Positions 40,634 to 54,141 of a DNA stretch of 64,000 bases are shown here, piece after piece. The notes under the pieces were generated by a model that saw nothing but the letters and a program-made list of their open reading frames with translations, did not search any database and was not told the DNA's origin. The position numbers were made by a program, and so were the translations under genes. Positions within the stretch are counted from its first letter, which is position 1. Every line of letters starts with the position of its first letter. The DNA comes from Planctomycetota bacterium (lineage in GTDB: Bacteria > Planctomycetota > Phycisphaerae > WQYP01): positions 30,155-94,154 of the forward strand of contig JAJZDN010000007.1 of assembly GCA_021805985.1 (NCBI GenBank), given 5' to 3'.

Positions 40634-43594
40634 TTAGTGCGTAGCGGCTGTCAGTCTTAGCGTCTCACCAACGCCCACGGTGATGGGTAGTGTTTTAACG
40701 ATGGCTATTGTTTTACCCTGCATAACTTTTCGCCCATGCTCCAAGACCGCCACCGCTACCAGGCGGCCCGGCCACGGGTTTACGAGACGGCATAGGCCAC
40801 CTCCGTGCCGGCAGCTGATTTGCACATACATGACGTGGCCCTTGTGCAGCCGACTGGATATTAAAAAATCTCCGCACGCCAGGAGATTCCCGAAGGATGC
40901 ATTCTGATTTTTTGGCCAGTTTGGAAACACCAGAATATTCTTCTGGTAGCTTTGGACAAACATACCGCAGATTGTGGTCGGAATGGTCGCAAAATTTTCC
41001 GTTCCGCCACCCCCCATCTGAAATAAAAAATTAGGATACGAAAAGTGCCTGATCAGCACATCGAGATGATACAAAATTCGGTCGGGATTATAGCCTACTG
41101 CCGCACATGCCGGATAAAAACTCGACGTATTGTTAAAGTCATCCCAGGTCTTTTGGAAGCTCACAGTATTAATCGCTGCCGCCAGTTCCCGCTGCGGGCT
41201 TTCCAAGCCGATCGCCCATGCCGGGAAAATAACCTGGTGCGAATTCATCCCCGCCGATGAACCGCTGATACGCACAGGTGGATGCGCCGAGAGCAATTGG
41301 CCCAGATTAATCCATTGAGACCCAATCAAGGCGTTCCGAATCACGAATTTTCCTTGCACACCAGCGCCGCCGACAGCATGGGCAATGCTGGAAATGGACG
41401 ATGCCGGCACCATCGGCAACGGACTTAAATGCGCAAGGATATGCTGCCATCGCACCGCATCCGCGTCATAAAATCCCAAGGAATGATTCATATCCAGCAA
41501 CCCGGAATACAGCATCTGTAAAAAGGCAATGCTGGTTGCCGGGTTTACATCATGCGGCGACTGCAATTCATCGGCGGCGTCGTCAGGGTCCATGTAAATG
41601 CCATTCTTCAGTACCAGATAATGGTCCCAGAATTGCGCCACGCCCCGCAGAAATGGATAGACCTTGCGTGCGTAAGTTATGCTGCGTGTGTAACGCCATC
41701 GCTGCAGGCAGTCCACACAACTGAATAACGCATCGGATTTCTGCCGAAGTGTTTTTGCACCGTCTGCGCTCCAGCCGGGCAGTGGGCTTAAGTGGGCGTA
41801 GTAAAACAAGCCGTGATAATGCCGATGCCGCGCCAAGGCATGCCCGCGTTGCATCCAATCCAATAGCGCCTGATCGTAATTATCTGCCAGCGCTATGTGA
41901 TTGGTGGGGTACGCCGCCCAGAAAGGTGCTTCATAATTATAATCCAGCGTGTAATCGCCATTCCAACCCATATGCGGCGAGGTAATAAAATTACCCCACA
42001 AACCCGGCGCAATTTGCCCCGGTGCACTGCTGCATGCGAAAGCATAAAGCGAACCGTACCAGAAATTCTCAATGGGCTTATTGGCTATGTGAATATATGA
42101 ATGGCGCCAGAAGTGCTTCCACCATGCCAAATGCCTGCTCCACAGTTGATTCACGGCCGAAATATTTAATGCATTGAGCAGTTTTAACGATGCGTTGCGA
42201 TAATTCGCCACATCGCGATTATCCAGTACGGATACAGCAATCGTTGCATCGGCCCCGGGTTGCAGCGTCAGCGCTGCGCGCCCGCTGTTAACCTGCACCC
42301 CGCCGCCAATAATGCGGAACGCCAGCAGCCCTTCCGGCGACGCGCCATTAAAAATAATCTGCTTATCGCCGGGGTGAATCGCGTTCCAATCCCACTTAGG
42401 TCCGATGACTTGGGCGGCGGTGGGGAATTGAGCCGTTGTTGCTACGGATACGCCATTGACCACCAAGGATAGTCTTTTTCCGTTATAAATCGCCGCCACA
42501 TGAGACCAACGATTTAATGCCAACCGTCCGGGCGCTGTAACTCGCACGCGATTGAGCATCGCGGACAATTTCCCGCCCACCGTCGAAAAAGTAAAGCCGT
42601 AGGAAATCTGCGGCGGATTAGGACCTGGTTGCCCCCAGTGTTGCCAGGTATCACTGGTCATGGCACTGAAAATCGCCTCTGTGCCCTTGGCGGATCTTGG
42701 AAAAACATCTGCCGATACGATAAAGCCTCGCTGCGGCATCACCAAATTGCCACAATCAAACCGCGTTGATTTTCCGCGCGAATGAGCATTGGCGCGGATA
42801 GAACGGGGCAAAAACCCAAACTGCGGCTCCAATTGCACCGCCCGTGCAGCCGCTGGCATGTCACCGGGCAAACCCGGGGCAAATGCCTTGGGCCAAACTA
42901 GCACATTGGCAATCAGGCCGTGAAATGGCCCCGCCGGATCACGTCCACTGGACAGGCCGATCCGCGCATCGACTGTGTCAGGTGATACGCATAAATATCT
43001 TATCGTGCCCTTTCGCCCGGACATTCCCGCCGCGCCGGTTGTGCCCCACGCATCCAATAATTTCGGGCGAATCACCAAAGGCAGTCGGCCGCTGTTATGC
43101 AGTTGCATAACCAGAAGATTTTCCGGTTTTGCCACCCAAGATTTAAACTGCAAATCATGACCATTATTCGTCGTAAAATTTCCGGCAACATCCGCAGGGC
43201 CAATATTTTCGCGCGTCAAATACTTCCCGTTATGCAACGCCGGAATGGACAAATTCAACCGCCCCACCGGCATGATGCGTCCGCGCAACACACTCCAGAA
43301 ATCCTCCCGCCCGATATACATGGCAATATGATCAGTATTGCGCCCTTGAATCGCCACTCCCACGCTTCCATTACCAAGCAGCGGCCCATCCGGAAAATTA
43401 TTCGCCGGCGCGTGGCTGGGCGCAAGGGTCCGAATGCCCGATATTTTGGAAACAATATTCCACGCCGCCTGCGACACAGAATTATGCACTTCGGCACCGG
43501 CCGTCGTCGCGCCTATGGCCAAACCAAGCAAGGCCACCAAAACGTTGAACCGCCGCGAAATAATGCGTATTACCCCAGGCCAGACACTGCGCAT
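40634..43594 (-). CDS. Secreted GH95-like glycosidase with LamG-like insertion
   Basis: 986 aa with a signal peptide ('VLVALLGLAIGATTAG'). The N-terminal 'DGPLLGNGSVGVAIQG' and the catalytic (alpha/alpha)6 region 'IAPGLWGNFITSPHMGWNGD', 'YTLDYNYEAPFWAAYPTNH' resemble GH95 alpha-L-fucosidases/galactosidases. Residues about 215-410 ('RGFIVSADVFPRSAKG', 'RLALNRWSHVAAIYNGKRLS') read as a LamG/concanavalin-type sandwich inserted between the two, likely for glycan binding. The expected substrate is an alpha-linked fucose or galactose terminus. SD GGAG lies 9 bases before the ATG. Assignment is by motif; GH65-clan relatives are possible. Confidence 0.72.
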   Translation of the reverse strand: MRSVWPGVIRIISRRFNVLVALLGLAIGATTAGAEVHNSVSQAAWNIVSKISGIRTLAPSHAPANNFPDGPLLGNGSVGVAIQGRNTDHIAMYIGREDFWSVLRGRIMPVGRLNLSIPALHNGKYLTRENIGPADVAGNFTTNNGHDLQFKSWVAKPENLLVMQLHNSGRLPLVIRPKLLDAWGTTGAAGMSGRKGTIRYLCVSPDTVDARIGLSSGRDPAGPFHGLIANVLVWPKAFAPGLPGDMPAAARAVQLEPQFGFLPRSIRANAHSRGKSTRFDCGNLVMPQRGFIVSADVFPRSAKGTEAIFSAMTSDTWQHWGQPGPNPPQISYGFTFSTVGGKLSAMLNRVRVTAPGRLALNRWSHVAAIYNGKRLSLVVNGVSVATTAQFPTAAQVIGPKWDWNAIHPGDKQIIFNGASPEGLLAFRIIGGGVQVNSGRAALTLQPGADATIAVSVLDNRDVANYRNASLKLLNALNISAVNQLWSRHLAWWKHFWRHSYIHIANKPIENFWYGSLYAFACSSAPGQIAPGLWGNFITSPHMGWNGDYTLDYNYEAPFWAAYPTNHIALADNYDQALLDWMQRGHALARHRHYHGLFYYAHLSPLPGWSADGAKTLRQKSDALFSCVDCLQRWRYTRSITYARKVYPFLRGVAQFWDHYLVLKNGIYMDPDDAADELQSPHDVNPATSIAFLQMLYSGLLDMNHSLGFYDADAVRWQHILAHLSPLPMVPASSISSIAHAVGGAGVQGKFVIRNALIGSQWINLGQLLSAHPPVRISGSSAGMNSHQVIFPAWAIGLESPQRELAAAINTVSFQKTWDDFNNTSSFYPACAAVGYNPDRILYHLDVLIRHFSYPNFLFQMGGGGTENFATIPTTICGMFVQSYQKNILVFPNWPKNQNASFGNLLACGDFLISSRLHKGHVMYVQISCRHGGGLCRLVNPWPGRLVAVAVLEHGRKVMQGKTIAIVKTLPITVGVGETLRLTAATH

Positions 43595-43761: not shown

Positions 43762-44832
43762 TTAGATCAATAAGGCGGCTTCGATGGCCAAGCCTGGGCC
43801 GAAGGCCAGCATCATACACGGCAGCGGTGCCGACTTCTGCCGCAGACGCTCCACAATAAACAGGATCGTCGGGGAGGACATATTGCCGCAGTCGGCTAAC
43901 ATCGCACGCGAAACATCCAAAGCGGCCGCGGGTAAATTCAGGCTGTTGCTAACGGCATCCAGAATTCCCGGGCCGCCGGGGTGAACCGCCCATGAGCCGA
44001 TATCCGCAATGGCCAGATTTTGCTTCGCCAAGAACTGCTCCAGCCAGGGCTTAAGATTGTCCGCGATCAGCGTTGGCACACGCCTCGAAAGAGTCATCTG
44101 AAAACCATGGTCACCGATGCGCCAGGTCATATCGGCATTTGATTCGGGCAATAAATATGAGCCGGTGGCGTGGCACGTCCAGGGTTCACCCGGCGCAGCA
44201 GACCTTCCCACAATGGCCGCGGAACCGTCGGCAAATAAAGCATTGGGCAATACGTTGTCAGTATTCCAGCCTTGTTGAAAATGGAGACTGCATAATTCCG
44301 TGGCACATAATAAAACCGTCGCATCCGCCTGTGCATTGGTAATGGCCAGCGCCACCTGCAAGGCGTTAAGCGCTGCATGGCAGCCCATAAAACCAATATT
44401 CACGCGGCTGACTGACCGGGATAATTGCAATGTTTCTATAATTTCTCGATCCAACCCCGGAGAAAAAAAACCGGTGCAGGAGACCGTTATCAGATGCGTC
44501 ACGGCGGCTGCCGCGCAGCTTGCGTTGCTCAAGGCGGCATGCGCGGCACGAACCGCCAAGGGAACAGCTTCGGCGCAATAACGCTCCATGCGCTGCCTGG
44601 TGCCCGGCCCCGCGGAGAAAGAAGTATCTGAGACATCATAAAACGGCGTGGCACCATTCTCCCCATCCAACAGCACGGTATGCCGGCGTTTAATGCTGGA
44701 TTTACGGTAAATGGTGGCCAAGAGGCGGGACTGCTTTTCCGTAAGACCCTTTTGGGCAATAGCGCACGCTTTGTCCTGACTAATGCCGAAAGTCGGCAAC
44801 GCCGTCCCCACACCGGTGATATGCAAACCCAT
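43762..44832 (-). CDS. Type III polyketide synthase
   Basis: 356 aa, thiolase fold. The catalytic triad of chalcone-synthase-like enzymes is visible: Cys151 in 'GFMGCHAALNALQ', His284 in 'WAVHPGGPGILD', Asn317 in 'CGNMSSPTILF'. It condenses malonyl-CoA units onto a starter acyl-CoA; bacterial members make alkylpyrones, alkylresorcinols or naphthols. Last gene of the pabB-methyltransferase-oxidoreductase-PKS operon, 13 bases after the FAD gene, SD GGAG at 5 bases. The neighbouring tailoring genes mirror SrsB/SrsC-type steps, so a methylated, oxidised phenolic lipid or quinone is a reasonable guess, not shown. Confidence 0.88.
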   Translation of the reverse strand: MGLHITGVGTALPTFGISQDKACAIAQKGLTEKQSRLLATIYRKSSIKRRHTVLLDGENGATPFYDVSDTSFSAGPGTRQRMERYCAEAVPLAVRAAHAALSNASCAAAAVTHLITVSCTGFFSPGLDREIIETLQLSRSVSRVNIGFMGCHAALNALQVALAITNAQADATVLLCATELCSLHFQQGWNTDNVLPNALFADGSAAIVGRSAAPGEPWTCHATGSYLLPESNADMTWRIGDHGFQMTLSRRVPTLIADNLKPWLEQFLAKQNLAIADIGSWAVHPGGPGILDAVSNSLNLPAAALDVSRAMLADCGNMSSPTILFIVERLRQKSAPLPCMMLAFGPGLAIEAALLI

Positions 44833-44845
44833 TTGAACTCCAAAA

Positions 44846-45991
44846 CTAAGCCATAGCCACAGGCCGATTTATCTGCCTGACAAGCGGGCCAGCCAGTCCC
44901 GGCGACATTTTCAGCGCCTCAACGGCCAAGCGTGTAATGGCCCGATTCCGCAACACCAGTGTGACGGCGCGGCAGGTGCGATGCCGCGATCCGACAAGCT
45001 TACGGAACTGCTTCTGCCATTGGAGCCCAAGCTCATCGCGCCATTCTGTAACTGCTTGCTCAAGCAGTGGCAGGATTCGCTTGGCACCGGCTAAGGCCCA
45101 GGCCATTCCCTCTCCGGAAAACGGTTCAACATACCCCGCCGAGTCACCAAGAACAAAAAGCCGCGTTTCAAAAAGTCTGCTCCGATGGCGCGTTAGCGCC
45201 GGTGCGCCATGCCAGCGGCAGGCAGGAAGGCCCGCCGGCACCGGCAATCCCGAATCACGGATTATTTCAGCCAGGGCGTTGGCCGCCCCTGCGGCGTCAC
45301 GTGCGGCATGAACATCCAGCGCAGCCGCGATATGCAGCCTCTGGTTTTCCACCGTGACCAGCCCGGCGTAGCCCCGCTTACCGCAGGCCATGTAAATGAT
45401 TCCCGGGGCGTACCCCTGGGTGGGATATTCCAGCATTCCCGCGATACCAACGCGCGAATTGGCCGCAATTTCCAACCCGTCATCCGCACGCAGCAGCCGC
45501 CCGCCCAGTCCATCGGCAACCAGCACGATTTTAGCCCGCACCGACCCCACGATGCCGTCCTGCACGACCGATACTTCCCGATGCGTGGAAAAGGCGGCTG
45601 TGGCCTGCGCCGTGGTGCGCGGCATAAAAGCTGCTCCGACATTTTGTGCATGGTTAATCAATGCCATATCCAGCACCTCACGGGAAATCGCCAACCCGCT
45701 GGGGATGGGTATTTTGGCCGTTGTGCCACCACAAGCCAGATAAAACCGATCAAGCGGCGTGGCACCTAAAGCGCGGATATTAAATTGTGCCTCTTCAAGC
45801 AACAGCACTGCCGCCTGATTCAAACAACACCCGCAGGCTTTGCCACGTGGAAACGCTGCCTTATCAATCAACAACACACTTAATCCCCGCCGCGCGGCCC
45901 CATAAGCTGCCATAGCACCTGCTACTCCAGCCCCCACCACCAGCACATCCCACAGGCGATCAGCCTTCCCGGCCGCGGAAAAGCAAATCAT
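44846..45991 (-). CDS. FAD-dependent oxidoreductase (geranylgeranyl reductase/aromatic hydroxylase-like)
   Basis: 381 aa. GxGxxG motif 'DVLVVGAGVAGAMAAYGA', then 'PRGKACGCCLNQAAV', a second FAD strand 'IVLVADGLGGRLL' and 'FVLGDSAGYVEPFSGEGMAW', the GD motif of flavoprotein hydroxylases and geranylgeranyl-reductase-like enzymes. It probably hydroxylates or reduces the PKS product. Its ATG overlaps the methyltransferase stop (ATGA) and the PKS gene follows 13 bases later. The C-terminal third is variable, so substrate cannot be read. Confidence 0.88.
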   Translation of the reverse strand: MICFSAAGKADRLWDVLVVGAGVAGAMAAYGAARRGLSVLLIDKAAFPRGKACGCCLNQAAVLLLEEAQFNIRALGATPLDRFYLACGGTTAKIPIPSGLAISREVLDMALINHAQNVGAAFMPRTTAQATAAFSTHREVSVVQDGIVGSVRAKIVLVADGLGGRLLRADDGLEIAANSRVGIAGMLEYPTQGYAPGIIYMACGKRGYAGLVTVENQRLHIAAALDVHAARDAAGAANALAEIIRDSGLPVPAGLPACRWHGAPALTRHRSRLFETRLFVLGDSAGYVEPFSGEGMAWALAGAKRILPLLEQAVTEWRDELGLQWQKQFRKLVGSRHRTCRAVTLVLRNRAITRLAVEALKMSPGLAGPLVRQINRPVAMA

Positions 45992-46674
45992 GTCCGACTC
46001 CCGGACAAGACAAAGCGAAATGGAAACCGCGGTTCAATTTTGACATTGGCCAAGCCGGCTTGTACTGCCAAGGCCGCACTTTCCGCCATGGTATAAGCGG
46101 CTCGAACCGACCTTGGGCCGTCCACGCACACCACGCGCGAACCCAGTACACATGCGGCACCTGCTGCCAGAAGCCACCCGATGGTGGAGCGGCGCAGATC
46201 ATTGACGATCAACCGCTGCCCGGCCCCACCGGCCAACTTTTTCAAGAACGCAACGGCCTGTGAAGAATCCAGATGATGCATAAACAATGAACTCACAATA
46301 ACATCATAGCCTTGTGGAACGCTGTCCGTAAAAACATCCCAGATAAACCAGTCAATGGAAGCACCGTGCTTTTCCGCATTGGCTTTGGCATGGGCCATGG
46401 CGGTCGAGCTTTTATCACATCCTGCGATCTCCAATTTTACGCCCGTCTGATGGGCCAATTTCCACAGAGCGATAGGCACATCCCCCCCGCCAGTAGCGAC
46501 ATCCAGCACCCGCAATACCTTTTTGTTCTCTAACATCGGATGAATTTCACGCCACACAATTCCAGCACTGTCACTCCAATGATTAATGCGTTCCAGCGCG
46601 GCCAAAGCACGGTGGTGACTTTCTGGAGAAATGTCCGAAGAATCCATAATCTCGGGCACGCGATTCTGCTTCAC
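45988..46674 (-). CDS. SAM-dependent methyltransferase (class I)
   Basis: 228 aa from a GTG start (AGGAG 7 bases upstream; GTGA overlap with pabB). SAM motif I 'RVLDVATGGGDVPIALWK', acidic loop 'AGCDKSSTAMAHA', motif 'DVIVSSLFMHHLDSS' and post-motif 'QRLIVNDLRRS'. It probably O- or C-methylates the polyketide made by the downstream type III PKS, as SrsB-like methyltransferases do. Its stop overlaps the FAD oxidoreductase start by 4 bases. The track start (46698) lies inside the pabB coding end and has no SD. Confidence 0.86.
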   Translation of the reverse strand: MKQNRVPEIMDSSDISPESHHRALAALERINHWSDSAGIVWREIHPMLENKKVLRVLDVATGGGDVPIALWKLAHQTGVKLEIAGCDKSSTAMAHAKANAEKHGASIDWFIWDVFTDSVPQGYDVIVSSLFMHHLDSSQAVAFLKKLAGGAGQRLIVNDLRRSTIGWLLAAGAACVLGSRVVCVDGPRSVRAAYTMAESAALAVQAGLANVKIEPRFPFRFVLSGSRT

Positions 46675-48083
46675 AACATTTCTCCTGTTAATGCACACAT
46701 TAACGCCGACGCTTTGGCGAGGATTTCTGCATACTCTTCATCCGGGTTGCTGTCTGCAGTGATACCAGCGCCGGAACGAAACGTTGCAATGCCATTCGCA
46801 ATATGGATGGTACGAATGGCAATACTTAGCGTGCCGTCACCAGTCGGACTGATCCAACCGATGTTACCGCAATATATGCCGCGCCGCTGATTTTCCAGTT
46901 CACAGATAATCTCCATAGCTCTTATTTTAGGCACTCCGGTAATGGATCCACCCGGGCACATTGCCATGATGATTTCATCCCACCGTTGGCGCACATGACG
47001 CTGTAGTTTACCCGTGACTACGCCATGCGTATGCCAAAGCGTAGGCAATTTTTCGATCTGCCGGGGCTTTTCCACGCATACGCTGGTGCACACGCGGCCC
47101 AGATCATTGCGCAGCAAATCCACAATCATCGCCAGTTCAGAGCGATCTTTTGCGCTGTGCAACAATTCGTCACACCGTTGCTGATCCGCAACAGGGTTAT
47201 CACATACACGTCGGCGGGTGCCTTTGATGGGGCGTGTTTCAAGTAATTCTCCGGTACGTTGCAGAAATAACTCCGGCGATCCGGAAATAATTTCATCTTT
47301 CCCATAGCGAAAAAAAGCGGCATATTGGGCCGGGTTGTTTTTCACCAGACGCCGGAAAACTTGGTAGCCCGGTTCCGCCACTCTGGCGGTCCATACAGCG
47401 GATATATTGGCCTGATAGATATCCCCGGCGGCAATGTATTCTTTGCATCGATGCACCGCCGCCTTGAATGCGGAGCCGTCAGGATGCTGCAGGCTTGTAG
47501 CTTTCACCGGAGCATCCCTCGATGGATCGCGGGAGTTTGCTGCGTTAAATTGGCACTGCATTTGCCCGATGACACTTTCCGCGTTCCGGGAATCACCGTG
47601 CAACGCCACCAGAAGCCATTCCTGCTTATCAGCATCAAAAACGAAATAGCGTTCAAAGAGTTGCCAGCGTGCCAGCGGAAAAGCCCCCGCCGACCGAGCA
47701 CACAGTTGCGGCAATTCCGCCATCATGCCTGATTCGTAACTAAACCAGCCAAGCCAGCCGACCCGATCCGGGGGTGGTTGGGAAAAGGAAATAGCGGTGA
47801 TAATATCCTGCCAGCGCTGCCAGGCCTCGGGCGGCGTCATGGCCATGGCTCCATGAGCTTGGGCAGCTGCTGCCAAACCGGTGCAGTCCAGTTTAATTTT
47901 CCAGTCTTTCTCAGTTAGCTGCACGCCAGAAATCGCGTTCACCGCCAGGACCGCATGACCTCCGGTTCCACTGTGCAGCATAGCGATGTCTCCGCCCTGC
48001 CCAGCCAACACGCCCAGCAGCCGCACGGGATCAACGCTGCCGCCGGCAGTGCGACTATGCAGCGTAAGTTTGCAGTCAGCCAT
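46671..48083 (-). CDS. pabB: Aminodeoxychorismate/anthranilate synthase component I (PabB-like)
   Basis: 470 aa. Chorismate-utilising enzyme: 'SGSPELFLQ', 'IKGTRRR', 'VDLLRNDLGRVC', 'PGGSITGVPKIRAMEII', 'RGIYCGNIGWISP', 'SAIRT'-type and 'FRSGAGITADSNPDEEYAE' blocks are typical. 'GGSITGVPK' and the short N-terminus fit PabB (folate) better than TrpE. No glutamine amidotransferase subunit or pabC is adjacent, so it presumably works with one elsewhere. First gene of the operon with the methyltransferase, FAD oxidoreductase and type III PKS, joined by a GTGA overlap. SD GAGG lies 8 bases upstream. Confidence 0.9.
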   Translation of the reverse strand: MADCKLTLHSRTAGGSVDPVRLLGVLAGQGGDIAMLHSGTGGHAVLAVNAISGVQLTEKDWKIKLDCTGLAAAAQAHGAMAMTPPEAWQRWQDIITAISFSQPPPDRVGWLGWFSYESGMMAELPQLCARSAGAFPLARWQLFERYFVFDADKQEWLLVALHGDSRNAESVIGQMQCQFNAANSRDPSRDAPVKATSLQHPDGSAFKAAVHRCKEYIAAGDIYQANISAVWTARVAEPGYQVFRRLVKNNPAQYAAFFRYGKDEIISGSPELFLQRTGELLETRPIKGTRRRVCDNPVADQQRCDELLHSAKDRSELAMIVDLLRNDLGRVCTSVCVEKPRQIEKLPTLWHTHGVVTGKLQRHVRQRWDEIIMAMCPGGSITGVPKIRAMEIICELENQRRGIYCGNIGWISPTGDGTLSIAIRTIHIANGIATFRSGAGITADSNPDEEYAEILAKASALMCALTGEML

Positions 48084-48173
48084 TAAAACAACCTCACTCC
48101 AGGGAGGAACACTTTGGATTCGGACGATGGAGAAAATATCAGATTTCTGAACGCCCCATCACTGATGCAACGG

Positions 48174-48668
48174 TCAAATCGCCTGTACCACCAGTTGCCC
48201 TCCGGAAACCGCAACAGCGCGAATCGGCGCACCTTTTTCAATAATCGGACCTTCGCTTATACAGGCGATGCGGTGGCTGTCGATCAGACCGGTCCCCGCT
48301 GGGCGCAATGTCGTCACCGCTGATCCGGTGCGGCCGATCAAAGCGGTCAATTCAATCTGCTGATCTTTGGAAACAGCATTTACCTTCTGCGGATTAGGCC
48401 CCCGCAACAGCACGCGGCGGCCAACCGGGCTGTGGGGATAATACTTAACAAATCCGGTTATCACTAAGGGAGTCAGCAGCATAAAAGCCAAGGCGCTAAC
48501 CATGCCAAACGTCGGCCCGACAATAAAACTTAGAATCATGCCGGAAATAGCAAACGCGGCTGCGAGAATCGCCATAAAGCCGTGCGCCGGAACCACCAGT
48601 TCCGCCAATAGACATATAAAGCCTCCAACAAACAGCAGAACGCAGGCCATTAGAATGTCGAAATTCAT
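48174..48668 (-). CDS. Short NfeD-like membrane protein
   Basis: 164 aa. Three or four transmembrane helices ('LMACVLLFVGGFICLLAELV', 'FMAILAAAFAISGMILSF'), then a C-terminal OB-fold ('ALIGRTGSAVTTLRPAG', 'IIEKGAPIRAVAVSGGQLVV'). NfeD proteins partner with stomatin/flotillin-type membrane scaffolds. It follows the long NfeD gene by 12 bases in the same operon; no stomatin gene is in the window. ATG 48668 is preferred over the GTG at 48671. Confidence 0.82.
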   Translation of the reverse strand: MNFDILMACVLLFVGGFICLLAELVVPAHGFMAILAAAFAISGMILSFIVGPTFGMVSALAFMLLTPLVITGFVKYYPHSPVGRRVLLRGPNPQKVNAVSKDQQIELTALIGRTGSAVTTLRPAGTGLIDSHRIACISEGPIIEKGAPIRAVAVSGGQLVVQAI

Positions 48669-48680
48669 CACAGTTCAATC

Positions 48681-50294
48681 CTAAATCGCTACTTCAACCG
48701 GGGTGCCATCATCCGATATTTTTTGCACGATAATCTGATTTTCCCGTATTTCCACGATCTCCACAGGCAATCCCGGTGCGATAAATTCATTGCGTGAAAC
48801 CACGGTTACCAGATGATTATCAAACCGCGCTTTTCCCGACGGCCGCAGTTCAGACACCGCCCGGCCGACCGCACCGACAAATAGCAGATCGCCCAGCGAC
48901 TCAGGCGACGTGTCATGACGCCGCGATGCGGATACCGGCCTTAATTGCAATCGCCGAAAGCCCGGCGTAATGTCCAGGAACTTGATCAGCAAGGCAATGA
49001 TCACGCCCGCGGTAATGATTGCCAAAGTTACCACGCCTAGACCGGTTTGAAAGGCCTCTTCCGCCCCAACCTCTGATGCGCCCATGGGAACGAAGGATGC
49101 AATCATACCGATAATGGCCAAAATAAATCCGGGAATCGCCAGCAGCCCCAAACCGCCAAAATGGATAAAGTCCAGGGCGATGATCACAATTCCCAGGAAA
49201 ATAATTCCCACTTCCCACCAGTTGGCAAGACCCGTGAGCATCGGGCCGCCAAGAAATAGTGCCAAGGCTACCAGCCCAATCACCCCGGGAATCAGCAGGC
49301 CCGGATGGCTGAATTCCATGTACCCGCAGACCAGCATAATAATCAGCAGAAAGAACCGGACCTGAAAACGCGAACAAAAGCGCGACGCTTTTTCCAGAAA
49401 ATCCAGACGCAATACGGGGATTTTTGACGCAGTAATGTTCAGCATGGCAGGCAGACTTTCCGGCTCATGGATGACTGCCGCTGCCGCGCCCATTTGCACC
49501 GCCTCCCGTGCGCCCAGTGTCAGAAGCGTACCGGCTGGCTTGGCGCGTTTAACATAGACCCACGGATGCACTGCGGCATGACCGGGCAGCGCCGCGGTCA
49601 GACGCATTAACTTAGCGCGGGCTTCTGGTGGAACAAACCGCGTTTCTCCGGTCATTTTATTAACAATTTCATCAATTTTTATTTTCCGATCCATCATACC
49701 CGCCAGAATCAACGCAGGATGATTCGCATGGTCTTTCTGCACAGACTTAAGTGCCGGCGATGACACCTCGGCCATCGGATCAACGGCGATTTTAGCGGCA
49801 TCAGCACCCCGCAGGGCAAAGCTTTGGCCGTCCCCCCATGCGGCATTACCCGACATGATGACCTTGGTACATGCCGCCGCAATAATAGCCGCCGGCCCGA
49901 CTGCCGCTCTGTTAACCCAGGCGACCGTGGCGACATGCGAATGCCGGATTAGCGCGGCAATTTTTAAAGCCTCACGGAGTTGCCCGGTGCGTGAATTGAT
50001 TTGAAAAATCAATATGGAACTTTTACGTTTCAATGCAGTTGCAATACGCCGTTGCACGCTGACCCATGTGATGCGATCAATCGAACCGGTTATCGTGATG
50101 ATTGCGGCGTGCCGATGCTCTGCAGCCTCCAGCGGTTTGGCAGCCACAGCGTGTGAAATCACACTCTGTCCGCGCACAAGTATCGGCAGGCATAAAATCA
50201 AGCCAAGCACAATGGCGTACAACACGCTGCCCCTGAAGGCCCCCTGCCGTCCAACACCAAACTTCCCAAAGCCGTTCCCACAACGCATTTTCAT
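48681..50294 (-). CDS. Long NfeD protein: ClpP-like domain, membrane domain and OB-fold
   Basis: 537 aa. A signal peptide is followed by a ClpP/crotonase-like serine protease domain (about 60-250), five or so transmembrane helices (about 310-440) and a C-terminal OB-fold ('VGRAVSELRPSGKARFDNHL'). In active NfeD proteases the nucleophile sits in 'A-A-S-A-G-T'; the equivalent here reads 'NRAAVGPAAIIAAA', with Val where Ser is expected, so proteolytic activity is doubtful. SD GAGAGG lies 5 bases before the ATG. Operon with the short NfeD gene. Confidence 0.82.
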   Translation of the reverse strand: MKMRCGNGFGKFGVGRQGAFRGSVLYAIVLGLILCLPILVRGQSVISHAVAAKPLEAAEHRHAAIITITGSIDRITWVSVQRRIATALKRKSSILIFQINSRTGQLREALKIAALIRHSHVATVAWVNRAAVGPAAIIAAACTKVIMSGNAAWGDGQSFALRGADAAKIAVDPMAEVSSPALKSVQKDHANHPALILAGMMDRKIKIDEIVNKMTGETRFVPPEARAKLMRLTAALPGHAAVHPWVYVKRAKPAGTLLTLGAREAVQMGAAAAVIHEPESLPAMLNITASKIPVLRLDFLEKASRFCSRFQVRFFLLIIMLVCGYMEFSHPGLLIPGVIGLVALALFLGGPMLTGLANWWEVGIIFLGIVIIALDFIHFGGLGLLAIPGFILAIIGMIASFVPMGASEVGAEEAFQTGLGVVTLAIITAGVIIALLIKFLDITPGFRRLQLRPVSASRRHDTSPESLGDLLFVGAVGRAVSELRPSGKARFDNHLVTVVSRNEFIAPGLPVEIVEIRENQIIVQKISDDGTPVEVAI

Positions 50295-50349: not shown

Positions 50350-51753
50350 TCATCGAGTCGCTCTTGGAGTATTCTCGCGAGCTTTTAGCAATTCCTCAAT
50401 TTTAACGAGAGGTTTTCGGCGATTCGGCCACGTCTGGGCCAGTGCTATGGCCTGTGAAAGCTTGATGCGTGTGGCAGCCGCATGGGCGTGGAGCAGGGCC
50501 CGCTGCAGGCGAAAGACGGTCACACGGTACCCTTCTATTCCGATTAATACACTGACCGAAAGCTTACGCACTATTTTTGACGACGAAGATCGAACGTTAG
50601 ACAGCATGGCCGGAACGGCGGGCGAGCCGATATCTGCCAGTGCATCCGCTGCGGGCAAGAGGGTTGCCGCAAGCGTCACAATGTGCAGCCGGGCATCAAC
50701 GTGTCTATGAAGGTTTAACAGTAGTATGCGCCGCGACAGGGCACCCACGGCCCCCTTCATTCGGAATTGTCCCAAGAGGAATGCCGCCTCACACTTAAGC
50801 CGGTTGGACGGCGAATCAAGATCACGCACCAGAATCGCCTCGATCCGCCGGCGCTGCACGACCATATCCAATCGTGATAGAGTTTTTTGCGTCACGGAGG
50901 CAAAGAGATTTGCCCCCAGGATTCGTTCAGCCGCAATCGGGCCAAAACGCTGGTCAGCAGCTTGAGATAGCCTATGGATTGCCAACTGTACATTCACAAC
51001 AGCCAGGTTGTACGAACGCCCTGATCTTGCGTAAAGTAATCCGCGGGCAGAAGCGGCATCGCCCAAGCGGATCGCGGCGGCAAGTTGGCGTAAAGCCGTT
51101 ACCGGGCCGCTGGCCGGAGTCACCGCAAATTCCAGTCGCGGGGGCGACGTACCCGTTTGTGGGGGAGCTTTCGGCCAGGCGACGCCCTTGGTGATCCATT
51201 TGACCGTTCCGTTGGCGGCGATATCCAGTTCAATCGCACTGGTTCCAACAAACGCCCAGGAGGGGGAGCCTTTCGCGCCGAATCCGACAAGGCGGCGTGC
51301 CATGACAAAAAAAATGCCTGGGTGGATTGCAAACAGCCTTCCGAGTGGCAACTTATTTGAACATGATTTGCCTGCCTGCAGGGGCACGTACCCGCCCGGA
51401 GAGAACGAAAACTTGGCGAGCACCAGAGAATCCTCGCCGGCTTTAGTCAGGGCGACGCACCTGTCGTCGCTATCCACCACGCGGACACGCCAGCCGCACG
51501 TCTTTGTGGTCTCCAGCCAGACGGGGCTTGGGCCTTGATTTACAACTACCGCATCCACGACCGCCCCTTTGTTTGCAGGGCGCAGGTCCACGGTGGTCTT
51601 GTGGAAGGATTCAAGGATCTTCGGGGGACGCAGCATGTGCCCATGCACCCAACGCGAGCCAAGGAGAGTCGCCACGAAAAATATCGCGGCCCCGAGGCTT
51701 ACGCGCGCAGCCCGAGCGCTCTCAGTCAACTGGGTTAGACGGGTGTGATCCAT
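50350..51753 (-). CDS. Membrane-anchored protein with HEAT-like C-terminal repeats
   Basis: 467 aa. ATG 51753 has AGGAGG 7 bases upstream, the strongest SD in the region, and overlaps the stop of the preceding fragment (TAATG). N-terminal transmembrane helix ('SLGAAIFFVATLLGSRW'), a beta-like domain (about 55-180), then helical repeats after 220 ('SNRLKCEAAFLLGQFRMKGA', 'AADALADIGSPAVPAMLSNV') that look like HEAT/armadillo repeats. No family recognised. Last gene in the secreted-protein cluster. Confidence 0.65.
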   Translation of the reverse strand: MDHTRLTQLTESARAARVSLGAAIFFVATLLGSRWVHGHMLRPPKILESFHKTTVDLRPANKGAVVDAVVVNQGPSPVWLETTKTCGWRVRVVDSDDRCVALTKAGEDSLVLAKFSFSPGGYVPLQAGKSCSNKLPLGRLFAIHPGIFFVMARRLVGFGAKGSPSWAFVGTSAIELDIAANGTVKWITKGVAWPKAPPQTGTSPPRLEFAVTPASGPVTALRQLAAAIRLGDAASARGLLYARSGRSYNLAVVNVQLAIHRLSQAADQRFGPIAAERILGANLFASVTQKTLSRLDMVVQRRRIEAILVRDLDSPSNRLKCEAAFLLGQFRMKGAVGALSRRILLLNLHRHVDARLHIVTLAATLLPAADALADIGSPAVPAMLSNVRSSSSKIVRKLSVSVLIGIEGYRVTVFRLQRALLHAHAAATRIKLSQAIALAQTWPNRRKPLVKIEELLKARENTPRATR

Positions 51754-52283
51754 TATTGAACCTCCTGTTGGCACCAAATATCTGTGATCTGCTGAGCTTT
51801 CACGGACGTAATATTTGCAGTCCACTTCGGTTCCGTGTACGGGGTGGAGGTTGCAGAGGGATTGGGGGAACTCTCTCCGCTGTCTGTCCAGGCCTGGCCT
51901 GCCAAGGGGGCGTAATTCTTTACAACATTAGCTCCCTCCACGTTCCATTCCAGCGTCATATCCGCCGGGCAGTAATCCGCCACCAAGGGAATCTGCTGCC
52001 CAACTGAAACATCCTGCGTCTGGCCATCCACGACATTGCCACCGTATTCAATATGCGAAATGTAGGTGGTCAGCGGCTGCGGCCCGGCGTTGGCACATCC
52101 GGTCCAATATTGATTCGTTTTGGTGTCGGTAGCGGTCACACTGCAACTCACTGAAACCTGCCAATACCCCGCAGTCAGCGGCGTAAATGTCAACGTCGCA
52201 TATGACGATGTTGACGACTGCGTTGGGCTTATGGAATCAGTATAACTGCCTGATGGCGGTGAGCCAAAAGGATCCGCTTGCAA
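51753..52283 (-). pseudogene. Truncated copy of the Ig-like secreted protein
   Basis: 176 codons. Its start region 'SGSYTDSISPTQSSTSSYAT' to 'KTNQYWTGCANAGPQPLT' aligns with the inner part of the 467-aa Ig-like protein at 54178..55581 ('KTNQCWNGTANAAPQTLT'), but the signal peptide and first 120 or so residues are missing. A stop codon lies seven codons upstream of the track's TTG start, and no SD exists. A run of nine G (52319-52327) sits at the break. The end differs from the full copy. I read it as a decayed duplicate; it might be translated by coupling, but without export. Confidence 0.6.
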
Positions 52284-52356
52284 GGCCTGATATCGCTGCT
52301 ACGCCGCCGTTCGCTTGCGGGGGGGGGCGTGGGACGGCTTCCGGCGAGGACAAATT

Positions 52357-53163
52357 TCATTTCCTTTTTGCTCCCGCGTGCGCCCCCGCCGGTTGGGGCA
52401 CCGGGTTTGCCATAATAAAAATATTAACGCGGCCCGTGGGTTTGCCGTTTTTGCCACAGTATACGTCTGCACTCCAAAGCTGCGGGCCTGATACATGTGC
52501 ATCCCAACTTTGCTGGCCTGTCCCTGCCGGGCCGCGCACGTACCTGATGCCAGTTGTCAGAAAGCGCCGGAGCGTCATTGCCTTGATATCGAAATGCATC
52601 GGCACTTTGAACTGTTTTGGCTCGGGGACCATCACGACGCCACTTCCCGATCCGCTCCCTATTCCTGGGGGGCCTTCGTTGTAGAAATGGACGGTCGGCA
52701 CCAACTTGGACAACACATGAGATTCCAGGCGATCAAAACTCATAGTGCCGTGAAAGGAAAGCTTTTGGTCCAGCGGGTCGTGCCGCCATGTCAGGAGGGG
52801 CCGGTTAACCAGGTAGATCACCCGCCGGGCATACGAGTACCGGCCGACGGCGAAATCCGGAAGGTGCGCTTGTAGAAACTTAACAAATTTGCCAACCGTC
52901 TGATCGGGTGGGGCAGGGGGTACACGGCTCTGGTCCATCCCGATGTACGGGCCCTTGGGCGTGGAGGAAATCATTCCTTCGACCGTGTACGCGAATCCGC
53001 CTCTGACGTAGGTCCGGGCCAAAAGCTCGCTGGGCCAGACTGCGCCCCGCCTCCCAGCAGCCGGCGTGCCCGATGTTTGCGGCAGAGTTGATGCGAGCGT
53101 AATAGCGAGCAAAGCCGCAACGATTGTGAAAGCCACATCGGCGTGAATACGCTTTGATTTCAT
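52357..53163 (-). CDS. Secreted protein, paralogue of the 249-aa neighbour (copy B)
   Basis: 268 aa, SD AAGGAG 7 bases upstream, signal-anchor-like N-terminus ('VAFTIVAALLAITLASTLP'). Shares with the 249-aa protein 'KLSFHGTMSFDRLESHVLSK' and 'FKVPMHFDIKAMTLRRFLTT', the second resembling secretin/TonB short-domain strands ('...LHF..VKDMTLRQFL'). A Gly/Ser-rich linker ('GIGSGSGSGVV') is unique to this copy. No family known. Probably periplasmic or exposed, part of the same cluster function. Confidence 0.65.
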   Translation of the reverse strand: MKSKRIHADVAFTIVAALLAITLASTLPQTSGTPAAGRRGAVWPSELLARTYVRGGFAYTVEGMISSTPKGPYIGMDQSRVPPAPPDQTVGKFVKFLQAHLPDFAVGRYSYARRVIYLVNRPLLTWRHDPLDQKLSFHGTMSFDRLESHVLSKLVPTVHFYNEGPPGIGSGSGSGVVMVPEPKQFKVPMHFDIKAMTLRRFLTTGIRYVRGPAGTGQQSWDAHVSGPQLWSADVYCGKNGKPTGRVNIFIMANPVPQPAGAHAGAKRK

Positions 53164-53179
53164 GGAGGGTCTCCTTTCA

Positions 53180-53335
53180 CGAACGATCCGCCCGTGCCCT
53201 GGTCCTTCTCGTTAACGACTTAGCCATCGTAGACGCTGCTCAACGGCTTGCCAAACTGGTCCACGACAGGAAACCGAAAAAGCCGTCTCGACCAGCGTAC
53301 CGAGAAGGACATCCCCAGGAGGGTCCAGCCCATCT
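53180..53335 (-). pseudogene. Remnant of an Ig-like protein C-terminal part with nonsense codon
   Basis: Between the two paralogous secreted genes, one minus frame reads 'VVDQFGKPLSSVYDG', then stop, then 'VVNEKDQGTGGSF'. The full-length protein has 'VDDQFGKVLSGLYNG', then 'QKVRENGSGLF'. The stop TAA stands exactly at the Gln codon (CAA to TAA). So a third, broken copy of the Ig-like gene lies here. Confidence 0.6.
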
Positions 53336-53391
53336 GATCCCGTGTAAAGGGAACCGCTTTGCGCGGATTTTGTGGGCAGATTGCAGCCTTT

Positions 53392-54141
53392 TCACTTCGT
53401 CTTTGCAGTTGTTTGTTTTGCCGCCCCCCCGGCAGCCGCGGAAGCACGGACTGGCCATCCCTGCATCATGATGTCGACGCGACCAGTGAATTTCCCGCGC
53501 CTGACCATGTACGTGACCTGCCAGAGGGCGCCGCCAAAGTGCTGCGGGTTCATCTGATACACAATTCCCCTGGTAAGGAACTGCCGAAGTGTCATATCCT
53601 TGACGTTAAAATGCAGTGGTGTTTTGTAGGACTCCAAATTCGGACCCCCGGGCACGAAGAAAACCTTGGCGAACGGATTGTAATAAAAATGCACTTTGGG
53701 GAACTCCTTCGCGAATACCCTGGTCGCCAACTGCATGAAAGTCATGGTCCCATGGAAGTTGAATTTCTGGTTCATGGGATTAGACTTCCACTGGAGTGCC
53801 TTGCTGTAAACGATATGTATAACCCGCCGGTTGCCTTTATCACGCCAAACTGACCAGCCGGGAAGGTTTGTACTCAGAAATTTCACGGCTGCGCTCATCG
53901 TCCGCAAATGCGGAGGAACCGGCACCCGCATGTTGGATATTCCCGAATACTTACCGTTGCCCGTCGGCACCATATCCTCGATGGCAAGAATACAGTGGCC
54001 TCGGCTGGCGAGGTGCCCCAATAATTTGTAGAGCCAGACGGTTCTGCCCCGTACCGGTGCGACGGCGCTCGCAGCCTGCGACCATGCCAGAAGGCTCGCC
54101 AACAGCATGACTAAAGCGACTAAGTTCCTAAATTTATTCAT
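53392..54141 (-). CDS. Secreted protein, paralogue of the 268-aa neighbour (copy A)
   Basis: 249 aa, AGAGG 10 bases upstream, clear signal peptide ('LVALVMLLASLLAWSQAASA'). Two shared blocks, 'KFNFHGTMTFMQLATRVFAK' and 'YKTPLHFNVKDMTLRQFLTR', define a family with the 268-aa protein. The tail is Ala/Lys-rich. The motif order (strand, helix 'TLRQFLTRGI', strand) suits short periplasmic binding domains, but no function can be assigned. It follows the Ig-like gene on the same strand after 36 bases, so they should be co-transcribed. Confidence 0.65.
   Translation of the reverse strand: MNKFRNLVALVMLLASLLAWSQAASAVAPVRGRTVWLYKLLGHLASRGHCILAIEDMVPTGNGKYSGISNMRVPVPPHLRTMSAAVKFLSTNLPGWSVWRDKGNRRVIHIVYSKALQWKSNPMNQKFNFHGTMTFMQLATRVFAKEFPKVHFYYNPFAKVFFVPGGPNLESYKTPLHFNVKDMTLRQFLTRGIVYQMNPQHFGGALWQVTYMVRRGKFTGRVDIMMQGWPVRASAAAGGAAKQTTAKTK

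Follow-up and report, generated by a model that had tools for sequence, protein, structure and literature searches.

In planctomycetes, 58 of 96 type III polyketide synthase (PKS) genes stand last in an operon, after genes for a methyltransferase and an FAD oxidoreductase (Milke et al., 2024; PMC10896814). The PKSs of G. maris, R. baltica and S. maiorica, which carry this operon or a variant of it, made penta- and/or heptadecylresorcinols (C15/C17) in C. glutamicum, and when the methyltransferase and FAD genes of G. maris were co-expressed, one methyl group was added (PMC10896814). Cyanobacterial hidABC is a homologue of this operon, with 54.8% identity between HidC and the G. maris PKS, and the flanking genes of the planctomycete operon are conserved among close relatives only (PMC10896814). 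hidABC is the operon for hierridin in picocyanobacteria (Costa et al., 2019, following the accounts in PMC10896814 and PMC8086630), and hidA-hidB-hidC was the commoner gene order in a cyanobacterial survey (PMC8086630). In the srsABC system of Streptomyces griseus, SrsB is an isoprenylcysteine carboxyl methyltransferase (ICMT) (PMC6669644).

We analysed a 64,000-nt stretch of DNA (the window) from Planctomycetota bacterium GCA_021805985.1 (contig JAJZDN010000007.1, positions 30,155-94,154, forward strand), together with sister genomes of the same genus (G001-G007; the window's own genome is G000). On the minus strand of the window, four genes lie head to tail: pabB, for a 470-aa aminodeoxychorismate synthase component I (46671-48083), followed by genes for a HidA-like class I SAM methyltransferase of 228 aa with a GTG start (45988-46674), a HidB-like FAD-dependent oxidoreductase of 381 aa (44846-45991) and a HidC-like type III PKS of 356 aa, a putative alkylresorcinol synthase (43762-44832). 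The pabB stop overlaps the methyltransferase start as GTGA (46671-46674, minus strand), the methyltransferase and FAD genes overlap as ATGA (45988-45991, minus strand), and 13 nt separate the FAD and PKS genes; both overlaps on which the original prediction of a compact, co-oriented four-gene operon was based could thus be read in the sequence. The methyltransferase start was placed at the GTG at 46674, which is preceded by the Shine-Dalgarno-like AGGAGA; the ORF lister had chosen 46698, an in-frame GTG further upstream. Support for 46674 comes from four sister genomes, in which the junction at the same place is ATGA, preceded by GAGGAGAT, a better Shine-Dalgarno sequence than that of the window, and from the relatives' methyltransferases, which have the same 228-aa length. 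A scan for promoters and terminators gave no clear excess over shuffled sequences, and operon boundaries were not set from it; pabB and the three genes behind it (the core) are probably carried on a shared transcript.

The core has the same three families, in the same order and with the PKS last, as the planctomycete alkylresorcinol operon (PMC10896814), comes from the same phylum and likewise has neighbours conserved only in close relatives. The window locus differs from that operon as a Phycisphaerae-like member whose PKS shares only about 50% identity with its nearest relatives outside the genus and which has pabB overlapping upstream. The order methyltransferase-oxidoreductase-PKS is also that of hidABC, and the identity of the window PKS to its nearest core PKSs outside the genus is close to the figure for HidC and the G. 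maris PKS; in contrast to hidABC, the window locus has pabB in front.

The PKS matched both Chal_sti_synt models of Pfam (N-terminal, E 2e-19; C-terminal, E 2.5e-25). Its catalytic triad, which the original prediction had described as intact, is formed by Cys151 (codon 44380-44382), His284 (43981-43983) and Asn317 (43882-43884; all minus strand), each invariant across 90 aligned sequences. Among core PKSs from other genera, the nearest, which belong to Cyanobacteriota, Planctomycetota and Elusimicrobiota, share 50-54% identity with the window PKS, and those of cyanobacterial cores about 50-53%. The best fold match was PKS18, with the C205F structure (1tee) among the fold matches. Residues T144, A148 and C205 of PKS18, which we take to be positions of its long-chain acyl tunnel, align with the small residues T120, S124 and C181 of the window PKS, and tunnel residues of this type would favour a long acyl chain. 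DpgA (NF042429) was the top NCBIfam match but was rejected, with 154 bits far under the cutoff of 425 and no neighbouring gene resembling dpgB, dpgC or dpgD.

The methyltransferase was assigned by Pfam to Methyltransf_25, with no ICMT match, and is close to PRK06202. Across the 63 named outside loci with a full core, it shares about 32-48% identity with the methyltransferases beside the homologous PKS genes, and the FAD enzyme shares 26-46% with its counterparts. The latter belongs to the FAD_binding_3/geranylgeranyl-reductase superfamily (TIGR02032 below cutoff) and has a group A monooxygenase-type fold, which is also that of halogenases and squalene epoxidase. Its AlphaFold model (pLDDT 88) found p-nitrophenol and p-hydroxybenzoate hydroxylases as best PDB fold matches, and these aromatic ring hydroxylases fit the putative hydroxylation of an alkylresorcinol ring, although the 2024 study was unable to give the FAD oxidoreductase a role (PMC10896814).

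We searched named genomes with the PKS alignment, obtaining 80 loci picked by PKS closeness rather than at random. When the scan was combined with class relatives, a full core was present at 69 loci outside the genus, in the order methyltransferase-FAD-PKS at 67 of them, in Planctomycetota, Cyanobacteriota, Gemmatimonadota, Hydrogenedentota, Elusimicrobiota, Acidobacteriota, Melainabacteria and relatives of Halomonas. No PabB-like gene was found near the core at any of the 69 loci, including 59 for which at least 2.5 kb was read upstream of the methyltransferase gene. In a tree of the three joined core proteins, the genus forms one fully supported clade, separate from the core of G013, the only other family member that has one; some branches in this tree and in the PabB tree are long, and only well-supported splits were used. 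The three-gene core is already known (published 2024) and widespread, and very probably there is no new chemistry in the window locus; the alkylresorcinol operon family gains a Phycisphaerae-like genus, and the core is seen in further phyla. The order PKS-methyltransferase-FAD, an alternative also reported for some cyanobacterial hid clusters, was observed at a Gemmataceae locus (L118:8001-10966). Full cores in the standard order were also present in the gammaproteobacteria Halomonas and Vreelandella (L152:6119-9074 and L161:6123-9071), which suggests transfer between phyla.

We then considered the identity of the operon pabB. Its product matched Chorismate_bind (E 1e-78), with PabB-clade2/pabB as the best NCBIfam models, and it has the chorismate-binding domain, the PIKGT lysine motif and the GGSITG-PK motif of known PabB enzymes; the only unusual thing about it is its position beside a PKS operon. 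The genome carries two chorismate-binding genes, as do most well-assembled relatives: a TrpE-like gene (PLAGT, contig C75) and the operon pabB, which is therefore the sole pabB of the genome. Assignment as TrpE was rejected, as the PLAGT/PIAGT motif is absent and the protein falls outside the TrpE clade, and isochorismate synthase and salicylate synthase were ruled out by motif and tree. The PabBs of the genus form one branch of a 21-member PIKGT clade (95/99) of family PabBs, the majority of them from genomes lacking the PKS core, and this clade includes stand-alone PabBs of sister genera. Elsewhere in the genome we found one TrpG/PabA over cutoff, Pterin_bind matches of which one is FolP-sized, and three class IV aminotransferase genes, among which PabC was not singled out. 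Collectively, the single copy, the PIKGT motif, the grouping with stand-alone PabBs and the candidate folate partners elsewhere in the genome mark the operon pabB as almost certainly a vertically inherited housekeeping folate gene, an upstream neighbour of the core specific to this genus.

The joining of pabB to the core is found only inside this one genus, and its tightness varies there. The overlap and the ribosome-binding site are kept in five genomes (G000, G003, G005, G006 and G007), while about 250 bp lie between pabB and the methyltransferase gene in G002 and about 1.5 kb, with no convincing gene, in G004. In G001, the outermost member on the core tree, the core is preceded by a DUF4159 gene, with no pabB on that stretch; we detected no chorismate-binding gene anywhere in this assembly, whose completeness is 76%. 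Since the five tight genomes form one clade, a single event explains their overlaps. Most likely, the core landed downstream of pabB within the genus and the spacer was lost later, giving the overlap; the locus illustrates clearly how a gene cluster can settle downstream of a housekeeping gene and come to share a start/stop overlap with it. Although selection for coupling could also explain why the overlap was kept in five genomes, the adjacency of pabB to the core is probably incidental.

Taken together, these observations make it very probable that the locus is a HidABC-type alkylresorcinol operon of planctomycetes, standing behind a housekeeping pabB that is not involved in lipid synthesis. 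Judging from the homologues, the PKS would load a long-chain fatty acyl starter and add three malonyl-CoA units, with aldol condensation closing the ring to a 5-alkylresorcinol, which the FAD enzyme may hydroxylate or otherwise oxidise and the methyltransferase may methylate. PabB, outside this pathway, would make aminodeoxychorismate for p-aminobenzoate and folate, and its position would provide the core with a ready promoter and translational coupling. To our knowledge, no product has been described for any Phycisphaerae core, that of the window organism included.

A different possibility, which we consider very unlikely, is that this genus has tied its alkylresorcinol operon in function to the synthesis of p-aminobenzoate and folate: the product would contain a unit derived from PABA, or co-translation with one-carbon supply would have been selected. 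In the first form, pabB would provide a starter or building block derived from aminobenzoate, and the product of the four genes would be a new aromatic polyketide. This would agree with the tight co-translation of pabB and core in five genomes, all of one genus, but a core without linked pabB in relatives had been set beforehand as the observation that would refute the link. The same core without pabB is what we found, at 69 of 69 outside loci and in G001, the basal member of the genus. In addition, the only PabB copy must serve folate whatever the PKS does, neither an aminotransferase-IV lyase (PabC) nor a CoA ligase lies within the operon, the predicted acyl tunnel points to a long chain, and our literature searches gave no bacterial precedent for pabB or an aminobenzoyl starter with a type III PKS. 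The aminobenzoate-derived starter raised in the original prediction is therefore highly improbable, and the locus lends no support to a new aminobenzoate-primed polyketide.

Shared control of pabB and the core is a possible and ordinary reading of the linkage. A stronger version, that the junction was selected to keep folate, as one-carbon and SAM supply, and the methylated lipid in coupled amounts, is in line with the conserved overlap and ribosome-binding site and with the consumption of SAM by methylation, but the spacers in G002 and G004, the absence of pabB from the G001 stretch and the sufficiency of one event within a single clade make it very unlikely. The original prediction also likened the core to the SrsA/B/C tool set, which held for the presence of a PKS, a methyltransferase and an enzyme of the flavin hydroxylase type for phenolic lipids, and srsABC is alike in outline, with a type III PKS and an alkylresorcinol that is methylated and hydroxylated by a flavin enzyme. 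Membership of the Srs system, with a phenolic lipid of SrsABC type as the product of the core, is nevertheless hardly credible: the close relatives of the core are hidABC-like, and its methyltransferase is of the class I SAM type, unlike the ICMT-type SrsB, placing the two in different operon families. With SrsB coming from another methyltransferase family, the comparison serves as an analogy only.

We also noted several features of the genes around the operon. Upstream of pabB, the window carries a pair of NfeD genes, one of NfeD1b type and one short (48174-50294), an arrangement kept beside pabB in the genus and not found next to pabB in sister genera. Only 90 bp (48084-48173) separate the short NfeD gene from pabB in the window; in five sister genomes, a gene for a CitMHS_2-type transporter of 516 aa that is missing in the window lies between the two (L017:5535-7085, L018:5566-7116, L019:2658-4208, L021:4452-6002 and L029:3826-5376), and in G007 its place is taken by a divergent AraC-type regulator (L020:8085-9050). 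Downstream of the PKS gene is a gene for a large protein with GH95-like catalytic and Laminin_G_3 domains (40634-43594), as also seen in G005 and G006. Further upstream of the operon, three adjacent ORFs of 491, 268 and 249 aa without a Pfam match occupy positions 50350-54141, the last two similar to each other in layout.
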